This document shows positions 4,871 through 20,017 of a stretch of DNA of 42,536 nucleotides, piece by piece. A program made the translations under genes and the position numbers. The notes beneath the pieces were generated by a model, which saw only the letters and a program-made list of their open reading frames with translations, did no database searches and was not told the origin of the DNA. The DNA comes from Eubacteriales bacterium (GTDB lineage: Bacteria; Bacillota; Clostridia; Oscillospirales; Oscillospiraceae): contig JAUMWJ010000016.1 in assembly GCA_030529655.1 (NCBI GenBank), positions 1 through 42,536 of the forward strand, given 5' to 3'. How positions within the stretch are numbered: position 1 is the first letter of the stretch; each line of letters begins with the position of its first letter.

Positions 4871-6379
4871 TTGGATGAACTGTTGCGAATGGAACACATC
4901 AGCAAGCGTTTCAAGGATTTTTATGCCAACAAGGACATCAATCTGACCGTGAAGCGCGGCGAGGTCCTTACGCTGCTGGGTGAAAACGGTGCAGGTAAAT
5001 CTACCTTAATGAACATTCTCATCGGCCTGTACCAACCGACAGAAGGAAAAATTTTCCTTAACGGCAAGGAAGAACACATCGATTCACCCGCTCATGCGGT
5101 CAAGCTGGGCATCGGCATGGTACATCAGCACTTCATGTTGGTGGAGGCCATGACGGTGTTCGAGAACATTATTTTGGGTGACCGCAATGTCACTGGTGTT
5201 TTCATCGACCGTGATGCACGCAGAAAAGAGATCGAGGAGCTCTCCGCCAGATACGGCTTGGACGTGGAGCTGGACAAGTACATCACCGAGATCTCCGTGG
5301 GCGCACAGCAGCGCGTGGAGATTCTCAAGGCACTGTATCACGGCGCCGAGCTGCTGATTCTGGACGAGCCCTCTGCCGCCTTGACCGATATCGAGGTGGA
5401 AGGTCTGTTTGCCATCATGCGCAAGCTGGTCAGCGAGGGTAAGAGTATTATCTTCATCAGCCACAAAATGCGCGAGGTGCTGCATATCTCTGACCGCATT
5501 ACGGTTTTGCGTCTGGGCGAAGTGATCGGTACGGTGAACCGCTCCGAAACTGATGGCAAGAAGCTGGCGAGCATGATGATTGGTCGTGAGTTGTCCGCCT
5601 CTCAGTATGAGAAGCTGGAATTCAAGGGTGAATCCGTCGTAGAACTGCAGGATGTGTCCTATAACAAGGAATCCAAGCATAACGGCCTCAACGGTGTCTC
5701 CATGCAGGTGCGCCGCGGTGAGATCGTGGGTATTGCCGGCGTGGACGGCAACGGCCAGACCCAGTTGGCACAGATTGTGACCGGCGTGCTGACACCCCAG
5801 TCCGGCGAAGTGAAGATGAAGGGCAGCGCGGTTGCCGCCTTTGATCCGTTTTCCTTTATTTCCTCCGGCGTCTCCCATGTTCCCGAGGATCGCAATCTGC
5901 AGGGTCTTGTGGGCGATATGTCCATTGCCGATAATCTGGTGCTGAAAGCAACGGACACAGATCGTTTCAGCCGTGGCAAGGGCATGGTGCTGAAGAAGGG
6001 CACCATCGACAAGTATGCCGACGAGATGGTGGAGAAATACGATATCCGATGCACCGGCGTTTCGCAGGATGTACGTAGTCTTTCCGGCGGTAACCAGCAG
6101 AAGGTCATTTTGGCCCGTGAGATTGAGTCCCAGCCGGATCTTCTGGTGGCGGCACATCCCACCCGCGGTTTGGATATCGGTGCCACCCGCTTTGTTCACG
6201 ATAAGATGATCGAAGCACGCGAAAATGGTGTGGGCGTTCTGCTCATCAGCGCAGACTTCGACGAAATTCTGGAAATGTCTGACCGCATTATCGTGTTCTT
6301 TGAAGGGCAGATCATGGGCGAGTTTTCCGGCAAGAATCCGCCCGTGGATGAGATCAGTCTTGCCATGACCGGTAAGTGA
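4871..6379 (+). CDS. BMP-type nucleoside/sugar ABC importer, double ATPase subunit
   Basis: This is a cytoplasmic energising subunit of 502 residues with two fused nucleotide-binding domains, like NupO/RbsA-class proteins. The first half has Walker A GENGAGKST, signature ISVGAQQR and Walker B LLILDEPSAAL. The second half has a degenerate Walker A (GVDGNGQTQ), LSGGNQQK and AAHPTRGLD in place of a standard Walker B, as is normal for this class. A TTG start at 4871 is preferred because GGGAG lies 10 nt upstream; the in-frame ATG at 4889 has no ribosome site. The order is regulator, ATPase, two permeases, binding protein. Purine nucleosides are the likely cargo by family, not by direct evidence. 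Confidence 0.9.
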   Translation: MDELLRMEHISKRFKDFYANKDINLTVKRGEVLTLLGENGAGKSTLMNILIGLYQPTEGKIFLNGKEEHIDSPAHAVKLGIGMVHQHFMLVEAMTVFENIILGDRNVTGVFIDRDARRKEIEELSARYGLDVELDKYITEISVGAQQRVEILKALYHGAELLILDEPSAALTDIEVEGLFAIMRKLVSEGKSIIFISHKMREVLHISDRITVLRLGEVIGTVNRSETDGKKLASMMIGRELSASQYEKLEFKGESVVELQDVSYNKESKHNGLNGVSMQVRRGEIVGIAGVDGNGQTQLAQIVTGVLTPQSGEVKMKGSAVAAFDPFSFISSGVSHVPEDRNLQGLVGDMSIADNLVLKATDTDRFSRGKGMVLKKGTIDKYADEMVEKYDIRCTGVSQDVRSLSGGNQQKVILAREIESQPDLLVAAHPTRGLDIGATRFVHDKMIEARENGVGVLLISADFDEILEMSDRIIVFFEGQIMGEFSGKNPPVDEISLAMTGK

Positions 6380-6393
6380 GGGGAGGTTTACGA

Positions 6394-7467
6394 ATGAAAA
6401 AATTGACAAAATCGATGACAAGTTTCATCGTACCTCTGCTGTCGATTCTTTTGGCATTCATTATCGGTGCCATTATCATGCTGGCTTTGGGTGCCAATCC
6501 CCTGACGGCACTGCAGTATCTGATCAAGGGCGCCTTTGGCTCCGTTGCCAATATCGGCACCACATTTTCCAAGGCAACTCCTCTGATTTTCACCGCACTG
6601 TGCGCCTGCTTTGCTTATAAATGCGGCGTGTTCAATCTGGGCGGCGAAGGTCAGTTCATCATCGGCTCCGTGGCCTGCTATCTGGTGGCATACTGCTCCG
6701 GTATCACAGGTCTGCCCGGTATTCTGCTGAGCCTGCTGGCCGGTACCATTGCCGGCGGTATCTGGGGCCTGATCCCCGGCGTGCTGAAGATCAGCCGCGG
6801 TCAGAACGAGATGATCATCTCCATCATGCTCAACTATGTGGCCACGCTGTTCATGGGCGTTATCTACACCAACTGGCTGCGCGACGCAAGCGTGCCTCAG
6901 ACCCCGGCCATTCCCGATGGCGTGATGCTCCCCCGTGTAATTAACGGTATGCGTTTCAGCTGGGCATTTGTGATTGCATTGGTCGTCGGTCTTGTGCTGT
7001 ACTATTTCCTGTTCTGGACAAGCGATGGCTTTAAACTGCGTGCGGTTGGTTACAACATGACGGCCAGCCGTTTCAATGGCTTCCCCGTTAAGCGCTATAT
7101 TCTGACAAGTTTCATCATCTCCGGCGCTATCGCCGGCCTCGGCGGCGGTGCTGAACTGCTTGGCACCCAGTTCCGTCTGATCAACGGTTTCGGCGCTGGT
7201 TACGGCTTCGACGGCGTGGCTATGGCACTGATCGGTCAACTCCACCCCATCGCTACCGTACTCGTTGCTATTTTCTTTGCAGCGCTGCGTGTTGGTTCCA
7301 CCACTATGCAGGCAGCCACCGGTGTACCCACCAGCGTGTCCGACATCATTCAGGCACTGGTCATCGTGTTCTCTGTGGCAGGCATGGCGCTGACCAAACT
7401 CCCTGAGTTTGAGGCATTCAAGCTGCGCTATTTCGGCAAGCATAAGAAGGAGGCGACGGATAAATGA
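6394..7467 (+). CDS. BMP-type ABC importer permease, first subunit
   Basis: This is a membrane permease of 357 residues in the BPD_transp_2 class (NupP-like). It begins MKKLTKSMTSFIVPLLSI and shows about nine hydrophobic segments. It has the typical FNLGGEGQFIIGS loop, GQNEMIISIMLNYVA, and the AVGYNMTASRFNGF segment near the ATPase contact. The start at 6394 is set by GGGGAGG at 6380-6386, 7 nt upstream; an in-frame GTG at 6376 overlaps the previous stop and lacks a site. The next permease starts in an ATGA overlap, indicating translational coupling. Confidence 0.9.
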   Translation: MKKLTKSMTSFIVPLLSILLAFIIGAIIMLALGANPLTALQYLIKGAFGSVANIGTTFSKATPLIFTALCACFAYKCGVFNLGGEGQFIIGSVACYLVAYCSGITGLPGILLSLLAGTIAGGIWGLIPGVLKISRGQNEMIISIMLNYVATLFMGVIYTNWLRDASVPQTPAIPDGVMLPRVINGMRFSWAFVIALVVGLVLYYFLFWTSDGFKLRAVGYNMTASRFNGFPVKRYILTSFIISGAIAGLGGGAELLGTQFRLINGFGAGYGFDGVAMALIGQLHPIATVLVAIFFAALRVGSTTMQAATGVPTSVSDIIQALVIVFSVAGMALTKLPEFEAFKLRYFGKHKKEATDK

Positions 7468-16888: not shown

Positions 16889-17665
16889 ATGAGAGAGAAC
16901 GAAACGAAAAAAACATTTGATGAGGCCGTGTCGGACGGCATGATCGAGGGCCGTAATGCGGTGATCGAGGCACTTCGCACGGAAATGACCATCGATAAGA
17001 TCTACATTGCCAAGGGCGAGACAGACAAGACACTGGGTCATATCGCCTCCAAAGCCCGTGACATGGGCATCGTGGTAGTGGAGGCGGATCGCCGCAAGCT
17101 GGATAACATGAGCCGCACCCATTCCCACCAGGGCGTGATCGCCCTTGCCGCCGTGCGGGAATATGTGAGCGTGCAGTCTATGCTGGAGGCGGCGGCAGAA
17201 AAAGGGGAAGCACCTCTGCTGGTGGTGTGCGATGAGATCTCCGACCCCCACAATCTGGGTGCGATTCTGCGTACGGCAGAGTGTGCCGGCGCCCACGGAG
17301 TCATTATTCCCAAGCGGCGCAGCGCCGGCCTGACTGCCGTGGTGGCAAAGACCTCTGCCGGTGCGGTCAGCTATATGCCCGTGGCCCGTGTGCCGAATAT
17401 TGCCGCGCTGCTGAAGGATCTGAAAAAACAGGGTATATGGGTGTTCGGTACGGCTGCCGAGGGTACCACCACACTGTACGATGCCGATTTGAAGGGCGCA
17501 GCCGCCATTGTGATCGGCAGCGAAGGTGACGGTATGAGCCGTCTGGTGGCAGAAAACTGCGACTTTTTGGTTAGTATACCCATGAAGGGTAAGATTTCAT
17601 CTTTGAACGCATCGGCCGCAGCCGCTATTTTGCTGTACGAGGCGGTGCGTCAGCGTTTGCGCTGA
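16889..17665 (+). CDS. rlmB: 23S rRNA 2'-O-methyltransferase, RlmB/TrmH type
   Basis: This is a SPOUT-class methyltransferase of 258 residues that 2'-O-methylates a guanosine in 23S rRNA in characterised relatives. An N-terminal substrate-binding domain (MIEGRNAVIEAL to HQGVIALA) is followed by the SpoU motifs: DEISDPHNLGAILRTAE, VIGSEGDGMS and the C-terminal knot IPMKGKISSLNASAAAAI. The next gene starts 10 bp after its stop, so they are likely co-transcribed. Exact target specificity cannot be proven from sequence alone. Confidence 0.9.
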   Translation: MRENETKKTFDEAVSDGMIEGRNAVIEALRTEMTIDKIYIAKGETDKTLGHIASKARDMGIVVVEADRRKLDNMSRTHSHQGVIALAAVREYVSVQSMLEAAAEKGEAPLLVVCDEISDPHNLGAILRTAECAGAHGVIIPKRRSAGLTAVVAKTSAGAVSYMPVARVPNIAALLKDLKKQGIWVFGTAAEGTTTLYDADLKGAAAIVIGSEGDGMSRLVAENCDFLVSIPMKGKISSLNASAAAAILLYEAVRQRLR

Positions 17666-17675
17666 AAGTGAGTTT

Positions 17676-19892
17676 ATGAGCAGGGAATACAGCGATGAAC
17701 TGCATAGCGCATTGGATGCAGCGCACCTTTTGGATGGCATAGAGCCATTGGAGGGCGAGGAGTATTCACTGGATGCCATCCTGGCAGAATTCGGTCAGGG
17801 TGAGGCGGAGCCTGCCCAAAAACGAAAGACAGAAGAAACGGCACATGAGACAGTGGAGACATCACCGGAGACAGCACCGGAGACAGCACCCGTTGTGGAT
17901 GAAGATACGGACGGGATGCGCGCCTTGATCAGCGCAGTCGTGGGAATGCCGGCGGAAGAGGAATCTGCCATCGGGGAAGAAGAACCGACGACGCAGAAGA
18001 CGGAAATCGTTATGGACCGGGATCCCGGTGAACCGGAGGGGAATGCCGACCAAATATCCCTTGCACAGGTAATGAGCCGGACAGTGGAGGCCGTACTGGA
18101 GCAGGACGATGAAATTTTAGAGGCGCAGCCCACTCTGCGTGAGCGCTTGGCCGCTCGATTTTCTGCGGTGAAAGAGCATCGTGCCGCAAAGGCGCCGATA
18201 CTTGGCGATACGGAGGAGCTGTGGGATCATCCGGAGACGGAAACAGCGGATGAACCGGAAGAACCGCAGGAAGCAGAACCGGATATGGAGCAGGCGGACC
18301 GGGATGAAAAACGCCGCATGAAGAAGCTGCGCCGCCAGACGCTGCTGGCAGCGGTGCCTGTTCTGCTGGTGGTGGCGGCATCGGTGCTGCATGAACTGAT
18401 CACAATGCCTGCCGTGTGGCTGGATCAAGCGGTGGTACGCTGCAGCTTGCTGGCAGGACTGCTGGTGCTGACGGGCATCGCCTGCGCGGATGTGTGGAAA
18501 GAAATGGGGAAACGGTTGGCCAATCGCCGCGCCAGCTGCGAGCTGGCGGCGGCGTTGGCGGCATTGGTGTCGCTGGCTGACTGTGTGCAGGGCTGTGCAA
18601 CGGGAAACAGCGGAAATCTGCCCTTTGCGGCGGTTTCGGCGGTACTGATCTGGCTGTGCCAGTACGGGCTGCTGCTGGAAAGCTCATCGCGCCGCGCCGG
18701 TTTCCATTTGGCGAATCTGGGCGGTACGCCGCCGTATACGGTATCGCAGACATCTGCCGGTATGTGCAAGCAAAAGGGCCTGATCGAGGGCTTTTACCGC
18801 ACTGCAAACGGACGGGACCCGGCGCGTATCTGGCAGTCGATTCTCGTGCCGCTGCTGCTTTCGGCAGCCACGGTGCTTGCCGGCGTAGTGTGCTTGTCAG
18901 GCAAGGAAATGAGCCGCTTTTTGTGGGTGTGGTCGGCCATGCTGTCAGCATCCGTGCCCTTATCCCTGCCTCTGACATTGCCGCTGCCCCTGTATCATCT
19001 GAGCAAACGGCTCAATAAAAGCGGCAGCGCCGTTGCCGGCTATCAAGGGGCGAAGTTTGTCAGCCGCGGCCGCCGTATGGTGCTGACGGACAACGATATT
19101 TTTCCACCCGGTACGGTGAGCTTAAACGGACTGAAGGTGTTCGGTGAGGAGATCGGCAAGGTGGCCTCCTATGCTGCTACGGTGGCTGCGGCGGCAGGCA
19201 GTCAGTTATCACCGCTGTTTGACCAGCTTCTGGCAGGTGAAGGCGGCGTGCATAGGAAGATAGAGGATCTGCACTTCTATGAGGAGGGCGGTGTCGGCGG
19301 TACCATCCGCGGCGAAACCGTTACCATGGGCAGCGCATACTTTATGAAAAAGTCCAAGGTGGTACTGCCCCGCGACCTGAAACTGAAAACAGGCGTTTTT
19401 CTGGCGGTGGACGGCGTATTGGTTGCGATTTTTGCCATTAAATACCAGCCATCCCGCAATGTGGAGTGGGCATTGCGTGCCCTGCGCCGCAATCGGATCG
19501 AACCGGTGCTGGCGGTGCGCAGCGGTAATATTACCCCCTCGCTTTTGAAGCGAAAGTTTAATCTGGACGTGAAGCCCATTTATCCCGATGTATCTACGCG
19601 ACTGGCGTTGTCAGATGCTTGCCGTGAGCGCGGTGAACGCGCCGATGCCGTGATCTATCGCGAAGGGCTGATGCCCTTTGCCGAAACGGTCATTGGCAGC
19701 CGCCGCTTGGTGCAGACAGTGAAATGGACAACGATACTCGCCTATGTGGGCGGTGTGTGCGGTCTGCTGCTGAGCTATTATTTCACCCATGTGGGGAACT
19801 CCGGCGCACTGTCGGCACTGTATATGATGGCGTTTCTGGCACTGTGGCTGCTGCCTACATGGCTTTTAAGCGGACTTGTGAAACATTACTGA
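17676..19892 (+). CDS. membrane protein resembling a catalytically dead P-type ATPase
   Basis: I do not recognise a named family for this 738-residue protein. An acidic, disordered-looking N-terminus (1-210) precedes eight predicted helices, at about 222-240, 250-272, 288-306, 315-336, 388-408, 414-440, 683-705 and 709-735. This 4+2+2 layout is that of P1B-type ATPases. Between helices 6 and 7 is a soluble region with P/N-domain-like pieces: GGVGGTIRGETVTMGSAYFM and a FLAVDGVLVAIFAI stretch. The phosphorylation motif DKTGT is replaced by TDNDIFPPGT (471-480). No GDGxND motif is present, and the loop between helices 4 and 5 is short and lacks TGE. Hence it is probably not an active pump. It sits 10 bp after rlmB. 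Confidence 0.7.
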   Translation: MSREYSDELHSALDAAHLLDGIEPLEGEEYSLDAILAEFGQGEAEPAQKRKTEETAHETVETSPETAPETAPVVDEDTDGMRALISAVVGMPAEEESAIGEEEPTTQKTEIVMDRDPGEPEGNADQISLAQVMSRTVEAVLEQDDEILEAQPTLRERLAARFSAVKEHRAAKAPILGDTEELWDHPETETADEPEEPQEAEPDMEQADRDEKRRMKKLRRQTLLAAVPVLLVVAASVLHELITMPAVWLDQAVVRCSLLAGLLVLTGIACADVWKEMGKRLANRRASCELAAALAALVSLADCVQGCATGNSGNLPFAAVSAVLIWLCQYGLLLESSSRRAGFHLANLGGTPPYTVSQTSAGMCKQKGLIEGFYRTANGRDPARIWQSILVPLLLSAATVLAGVVCLSGKEMSRFLWVWSAMLSASVPLSLPLTLPLPLYHLSKRLNKSGSAVAGYQGAKFVSRGRRMVLTDNDIFPPGTVSLNGLKVFGEEIGKVASYAATVAAAAGSQLSPLFDQLLAGEGGVHRKIEDLHFYEEGGVGGTIRGETVTMGSAYFMKKSKVVLPRDLKLKTGVFLAVDGVLVAIFAIKYQPSRNVEWALRALRRNRIEPVLAVRSGNITPSLLKRKFNLDVKPIYPDVSTRLALSDACRERGERADAVIYREGLMPFAETVIGSRRLVQTVKWTTILAYVGGVCGLLLSYYFTHVGNSGALSALYMMAFLALWLLPTWLLSGLVKHY

Positions 19893-19988: not shown

Positions 19989-20017
19989 TTGTCAGATGAG
20001 AAAAAATAAGATATAAT
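19989..20017 (+). promoter_or_regulatory. promoter of the EF-G-like gene
   Basis: TTGTCA (19989-19994) and TATAAT (20012-20017) are exactly 17 bp apart. Confidence 0.85.

Follow-up and report, generated by a model that had tools for sequence, protein, structure and literature searches.

The locus at positions 17676-19892 of the window, the whole 42,536-nucleotide stretch of DNA that was analysed, raises the question of what a membrane protein built like a P1B-type ATPase does when the motifs that define such pumps are absent. The gene encodes a product of 738 amino acids, begins 10 bp past the stop codon of rlmB and is single-copy, with one match in its own genome. The open reading frame, the intervening gap and the peptides quoted in a preliminary description of this DNA are all present in the sequence. 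The features of the locus, all on the + strand, are as follows.

16889..17665, + strand: rlmB, 23S rRNA methyltransferase family of the SpoU type (Pfam SpoU_methylase, 153 bits), the upstream neighbour
17676..19892, + strand: pseudo-P1B-type ATPase, whole gene, 738 aa
17763..17792, + strand: N-terminal peptide YSLDAILAEF, residues 30-39, a strict motif match
17796..18290, + strand: acidic tail, residues 41-205, probably disordered to judge from the charge and composition of residues 1-205
18291..18686, + strand: transmembrane helices 1-4, equivalents of MA, MB, M1 and M2 (hydropathy; first stretch of the LpCopA alignment)
18687..18833, + strand: remnant of the actuator loop, TGE deleted (family mean about 24 residues, against 100 in canonical pumps)
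18834..19001, + strand: transmembrane helices 5-6, with VPL in place of the CPC metal site (alignment and hydropathy)
19002..19715, + strand: P/N-domain head without catalytic motifs (alignments)
19077..19118, + strand: former phosphorylation loop MVLTDNDIFPPGTV, residues 468-481 (joint alignment)
19512..19538, + strand: TGDxxxTA equivalent AVRSGNITP, residues 613-621 (joint alignment)
19623..19646, + strand: site of the deleted GDGxND stretch, residues 650-657 (joint alignment)
19716..19889, + strand: transmembrane helices 7-8 (hydropathy)

Hydropathy predicts four helices that a short loop separates from a pair, then a large head and a closing pair, in agreement with the 4+2+2 layout originally proposed; the total of eight is the P1B count when MA and MB are included. 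A ninth hydropathy peak at residues 570-588 lies inside the head, within the part aligned to the N domain. Residues 1-205 carry a net charge of -43, with aspartate and glutamate making up 28% of the positions. No terminator-like site was found between rlmB and the pseudo-pump gene in the scanned stretch, whose sole + strand terminator-like site is located inside the pseudo-pump gene, and the two genes are presumably co-transcribed. The downstream EF-G gene probably has its own promoter, as a promoter-like site (11 of 12) occurs at 19989-20017, between it and the pseudo-pump gene.

Taken alone, the protein gives only sub-threshold matches (Pfam E1-E2_ATPase, 9.2 bits; TIGR01525, 14.1 bits, E=0.015), and no Pfam P-type domain is detected at E<=1e-3 in any of 34 diverse family members. 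With a profile built from these 34 members (A2), the copper pump LpCopA is recovered at E=2.9e-36; the alignment falls into two segments, one spanning helices 1-4 and the other helices 5-6 together with the P/N head. A second profile (A3), made from 69 more closely related members, finds the copper pump HMA4 at 4.4e-12, and in single scans the CopA model matches 20 of the 34 diverse members at E<=1e-3, with a best value of 2.9e-16. Because the profiles and the CopA model converge in this way, descent of the family from a CopA-like P1B pump is well supported at the sequence level, and the likeness, which the preliminary description had proposed to check with P1B profiles, is not due to chance. 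In a tree of 48 rows, 26 family representatives form one clade (100/100); this tree contains no P2 pump, and its deep branches are long and carry a warning of long-branch joining. Compared with LpCopA (PDB 3rfu; NCBIfam PRK10671), the family is homologous over helices 1-6 and the P/N head, shares the eight-helix layout and retains as recognizable features the glycine following DKTGTxT, the N-domain G539 and an ADIVL-like strand. It differs in lacking DKTGT, TGE, GDGxND, HP and CPC, and in having at its N-terminus an acidic tail with a peptide where a Pfam scan reveals no HMA domain. The quoted pieces GGVGG... and FLAVDG..., ascribed at the outset to the P/N domain, are indeed present, with the correction that both belong to the N domain.

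The extent of motif loss was assessed by aligning 143 non-redundant members (167 reduced at 95% identity) jointly with 20 canonical pumps; the split or truncated members L028, L070 and L087 are excluded from the column counts, and since the canonical pumps were kept for having DKTGT, only the other motifs count as controls. DKTGT, GDGxND and TGDxxxTA are each found in 0 of 170 family proteins. At the place of DKTGT the window protein reads TDNDI, and the column of the catalytic aspartate holds T in 97, S in 11 and D in 8 of the 143 members. The G and E columns of the TGE loop are gapped in 137 and 138 members, with E never occurring, and the GDG columns are gapped in 142, the remaining member having G-D-G but not GDGxND. 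In keeping with a deletion of the GDGxND stretch, the spacing from TGD to ADIVL averages 46.5 residues in the family versus 80.5 in the 20 canonical pumps. The histidine of the N-domain HP motif, present in 20/20 canonical pumps, is mostly replaced by S (85), C (22) or G (16) in the 143 members, and cysteine is outside the seven commonest residues at either cysteine column of the CPx motif. As raw strings anywhere in the 170 family proteins, TGE is found in 31, [CST]P[CH] in 8 and EHP in 4. The alignment thus bears out the reported absence of DKTGT and GDGxND and the short actuator without TGE. Orthologues with intact motifs, which would mark the window's copy as simply decayed, were sought for DKTGT and GDGxND among the same 170 proteins without yielding one, and the pseudoenzyme proposal stands.

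The former active-site loops have acquired other conserved residues. D472 and D474, described earlier as still present, are there as residues, in 131 and 130 of 143 members respectively, but they are not survivors of the catalytic set. The alignments place the catalytic aspartate on T471, the lysine of DKTGT on D472 and its glycine on D474, so that the two aspartates are new signatures of the family. The survey of residues 471-480 across orthologues that had been suggested also brings out F476 (137/143) and P477 (134/143), and further conserved positions are G552 (143/143), R615 (117/143), N618 (134/143), R662 (115/143), W724 in the last helix (132/143) and Y590 (141/143), the last at the place of the hinge aspartate that is D in 20/20 canonical pumps. 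The mean frequency of the top residue is 0.48-0.53 in the head, 0.48 in helices 7-8 and 0.36 in helices 1-4, and omega is 0.13 and 0.21 in two distinct close pairs. New conserved residues in the active-site loop, conservation of the head and low omega point to neofunctionalization of a former P1B pump rather than decay. That the gene is decaying and functionless, as the loss of every catalytic motif and an in-frame stop or split gene in a few genomes might imply, is extremely improbable given order-wide retention, the omega range of 0.13-0.21 and the near-invariance of G552, Y590 and F476; for the family as a whole, presence across the order together with purifying selection leads us to reject simple decay.

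The family is nearly universal in its order, which we take to be Oscillospirales, and its records include Oscillibacter, Flavonifractor, Pseudoflavonifractor, Intestinimonas and Oscillospiraceae. Of 297 order genomes with a completeness of 95% or more, 291 carry it, most of them judged by score alone. A search scoring up to three candidates per genome yields 290 matches at E<=1e-45, and one more genome (G452) has a divergent member beside rlmB. Full repeat searches were made of the seven matchless genomes and of seven among the weakest. None of the seven weak matches read has DKTGT, and three have rlmB within a short locus. The remaining six genomes contain, where read, ordinary pumps only, and as two of the family-less genomes (G258 and G269) belong to the same genus, real loss is suggested. 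Among the window's genome and its relatives, 94 of 99 are matched, or 92 of 99 after removal of two ordinary pumps recognized by length (G047) and by DKTGT (G058, locus L090). Outside the order but within the same class, 135 of 141 genomes are matched at the level of ordinary pumps (best 198 bits), and the nine of these 135 matches that were read, the top one included, are all canonical pumps; six order members within the class search score at least 528 bits. As some order members of family f20 score just 139-223 bits, a strongly divergent member beyond the order could escape detection. A role confined to sporulation is rejected, as all five SpoIVA-less genomes (of 63 good ones) keep the gene. 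Three genomes of one genus (G282, G299 and G311) have a single in-frame TGA within the matched gene. One family record (L099, JAGHUH010000011.1) is titled Candidatus Cacconaster stercorequi and placed under Bacteroidales in the NCBI taxonomy; its protein is identical to one in the window's own genus, and the label may be wrong.

Conservation extends to the neighbourhood on one side of the gene only. Of 164 loci that extend 800 bp or more upstream of the gene, 161 have rlmB there on the same strand and no more than 400 bp away; when only non-redundant checkable loci are counted, the figure is 136 of 138. The three exceptions among the 164 are L062 (rlmB about 470 bp away), L070 (split gene) and L053 (no rlmB). 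The linkage to rlmB that had been conjectured is therefore general, but that to ftsH is not, as 57 of the 119 loci that reach beyond 2.5 kb upstream contain ftsH. General linkage to EF-G is likewise rejected (downstream in 70 of 160 loci). In a number of loci rlmB is preceded by a gene cluster in which the one gene tested encodes MetK.

The frequency of the N-terminal peptide is given for 85 non-redundant loci fetched independently of it, because 80 others (the best 80 of 174) were fetched via the peptide itself. Within the first 110 residues the strict motif is present in 52 of the 85 (28 of the 29 loci from the window's genus and 24 of the 56 from other genera) and is missing by the strict pattern in 33; two members, L074 and L079, are almost tailless. 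It occurs in 2 of 477 other gene models of at least 200 aa, and one of those two is a fragment of a family member. One species has the tail, including its peptide, and the membrane core as separate neighbouring frames (L070:4164-5255 and 5268-6560, +).

A profile of the peptide, run on 14 and then 197 genomes, also detects it near an end of some unrelated membrane proteins, although the E-values of such a 32-position model are rough. The peptide lies at the extreme C-terminus of three long LspA (signal peptidase II) proteins (L240, L245, L254), at the C-terminus of a two-helix protein (L253), a surface protein with a Cadherin-like domain (L255) and a single-helix protein (L258, E=0.011), the helix counts for L253 and L258 being made by eye, and at the N-terminus of an ABC-2 permease (L256). 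With per-genome E-values of 2e-6 to 8e-4, L258 excepted, about 0.2 chance matches are expected in 197 genomes. Among the further matches, L259, L260, L261 and L264 are family members, L262, L265 and L266 are probably family fragments cut off at contig edges, as L250 perhaps is too, and L252, L257 and L263 look like chance matches and were set aside. The peptide is not a general feature of LspA, being present in 0 of 50 LspA loci taken regardless of it (the 30 top-scoring matches and 20 chosen largely for their long frames) and restricted to the three LspA proteins found through the peptide, and the profile finds no second peptide protein in the window's own genome. As its occurrence is this sporadic, docking by the peptide is put forward as a hypothesis.

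Loss of catalytic motifs is not confined to the main family. Two genomes of genus g21 encode a second dead P1B-type protein, L251:538-2424 (-) with NKTGT and L318 from 1375 (+) with SLSGT, and these two alone exceed 200 bits when L251 is searched against 247 order genomes. L251 has no GDGxND and carries an N-terminal peptide of the same type together with an acidic tail. The pair thus resembles the main family in the N-terminal YDL(D/E)(D/E)IL peptide, the acidic tail and the missing GDGxND, but stands apart from it in the tree, grouping with canonical P1B pumps of 621-733 aa that are ZntA/CadA-like by length only. In family f18, a dead P2-like protein lies directly upstream of rlmB in all four loci read (a fifth genome, G254, was left unread), so that rlmB is flanked by the P2-like dead protein upstream and the P1B-like one downstream.

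L073:9322-11778, - strand: dead P2-like protein, family f18
L076:9051-11261, - strand: dead P2-like protein, family f18
L347:3591-6041, + strand: dead P2-like protein, family f18
L348:3168-5378, - strand: dead P2-like protein, family f18

The f18 protein shares with the main family the absence of DKTGT, GDGxND and TGES as well as the neighbourhood, but unlike it retains a recognizable actuator (Pfam E1-E2_ATPase, 57 and 60 bits in the two tested). Its descent is assigned to P2 rather than P1B pumps because the closest canonical relative among the proteins compared is a 795-aa pump (L248, 119 bits). P-type folds therefore seem to have been inactivated on three or more separate occasions, two of these at one locus. 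A further protein, L319 from 754 (+), has DKTGV and GDGVAD and is possibly another partly eroded pump.

The reading we favour, at a probability of roughly 0.6, is that the protein is a neofunctionalized, non-catalytic pseudo-pump acting as a membrane scaffold or adaptor. A copper-type P1B ATPase would have shed every known catalytic or metal-binding motif by the time of the order's ancestor, after which the resulting non-catalytic membrane protein would have been kept in one gene pair with rlmB. Eight helices would anchor a compact head of P/N type, whose former active-site pocket, marked by D472, D474, F476-P477, Y590, R615, N618 and R662, may now be a conserved site for binding or for structure. 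Many members would have a flexible acidic tail with a short, probably amphipathic docking peptide, [YF]xL[ED]xILxE[FY], that may recruit a cytosolic partner, and ligand binding, if any, would be signalled through conformation rather than ATP turnover. The homology, the motif losses, the newly conserved residues, purifying selection, the adjacency to rlmB and the recurrence of the peptide in some other membrane proteins are established by the sequences, whereas fold, docking and partner are presumptive, as is the sensing or scaffold role suggested in the preliminary description. Against this reading weigh the patchy occurrence of the peptide in the family and outside it, and the possibility that adjacency to rlmB reflects old operon inertia. 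A broader version, in which an order-wide system of dead-pump scaffolds draws on at least three co-options (the P1B family, the g21 P1B-type and the f18 P2-like proteins), some of them co-assembling, and the shared peptide docks several membrane proteins, among them signal peptidase II, an ABC-2 permease and a surface protein, on one cytosolic hub, is offered tentatively and seems to us rather unlikely.

Continued transport by unorthodox chemistry, with D472 or D474 as acceptor in the manner claimed for the aspartate of DKQGI in TMEM94/ERMA, is quite unlikely: the conservation of these residues (131 and 130 of 143) and the ERMA precedent (PMC13322241) speak for it, but the catalytic column is T in 97 of 143 members and D in only 8, the histidine of the nucleotide site, CPC and the lysine of DKTGT are lost, the actuator is reduced to about 24 residues, and the activity of ERMA is itself disputed in another report (PMC12134183). 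It is also unlikely that the protein modulates a canonical P1B pump as its regulatory subunit. The common ancestry with such pumps and the presence of full-motif canonical P1B pumps in several of the same genomes, the window's included (L180), would fit such a role, but the conserved neighbour is rlmB, which is neither a pump nor a metal regulator.

The rlmB neighbour in turn raises the idea that the protein works together with RlmB or the ribosome, perhaps by positioning RlmB or ribosome assembly at the membrane. Adjacency across the order speaks for such a role, as does the cluster with MetK, which synthesizes the methyl donor, found ahead of rlmB in a number of loci. The role is nevertheless quite unlikely in our estimate, as the evidence for it consists of adjacency and, to our knowledge, E. 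coli RlmB needs no membrane partner. Any link of the pseudo-pump to ribosomes is accordingly presumptive, and the non-catalytic scaffold or adaptor remains our preferred reading.

Pseudoenzymes are well known among kinases and proteases. For P-type ATPases, the papers listed in searches on inactive, DKTGT-less or Oscillospiraceae members included no description of this family, and passages of one review (PMC10654040) on such terms contain nothing relevant. The only comparable case met in that literature is human TMEM94/ERMA, whose activity is disputed: it is argued not to be a Mg pump (PMC12134183), and it is reported to have DKQGI and GSSANL and to lose uptake in a D427N mutant (PMC13322241). 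As described there, it resembles the bacterial family in its P-type architecture, missing TGES and altered GDGxND place (PMC12134183, PMC13322241). Compared by description, TMEM94 keeps the aspartate of DKQGI and has ten helices, whereas the bacterial family mostly lacks the aspartate, has eight predicted helices and is of P1B descent.

As Pfam detects none of the 34 diverse members, routine annotation is likely to miss the family. A P-type protein that is near-universal and strongly conserved across a large, mostly gut-dwelling order yet devoid of catalytic motifs constitutes a natural test of the ATP-free uses of this fold, and the repeated inactivations together with the common peptide make the system testable in cultured members.
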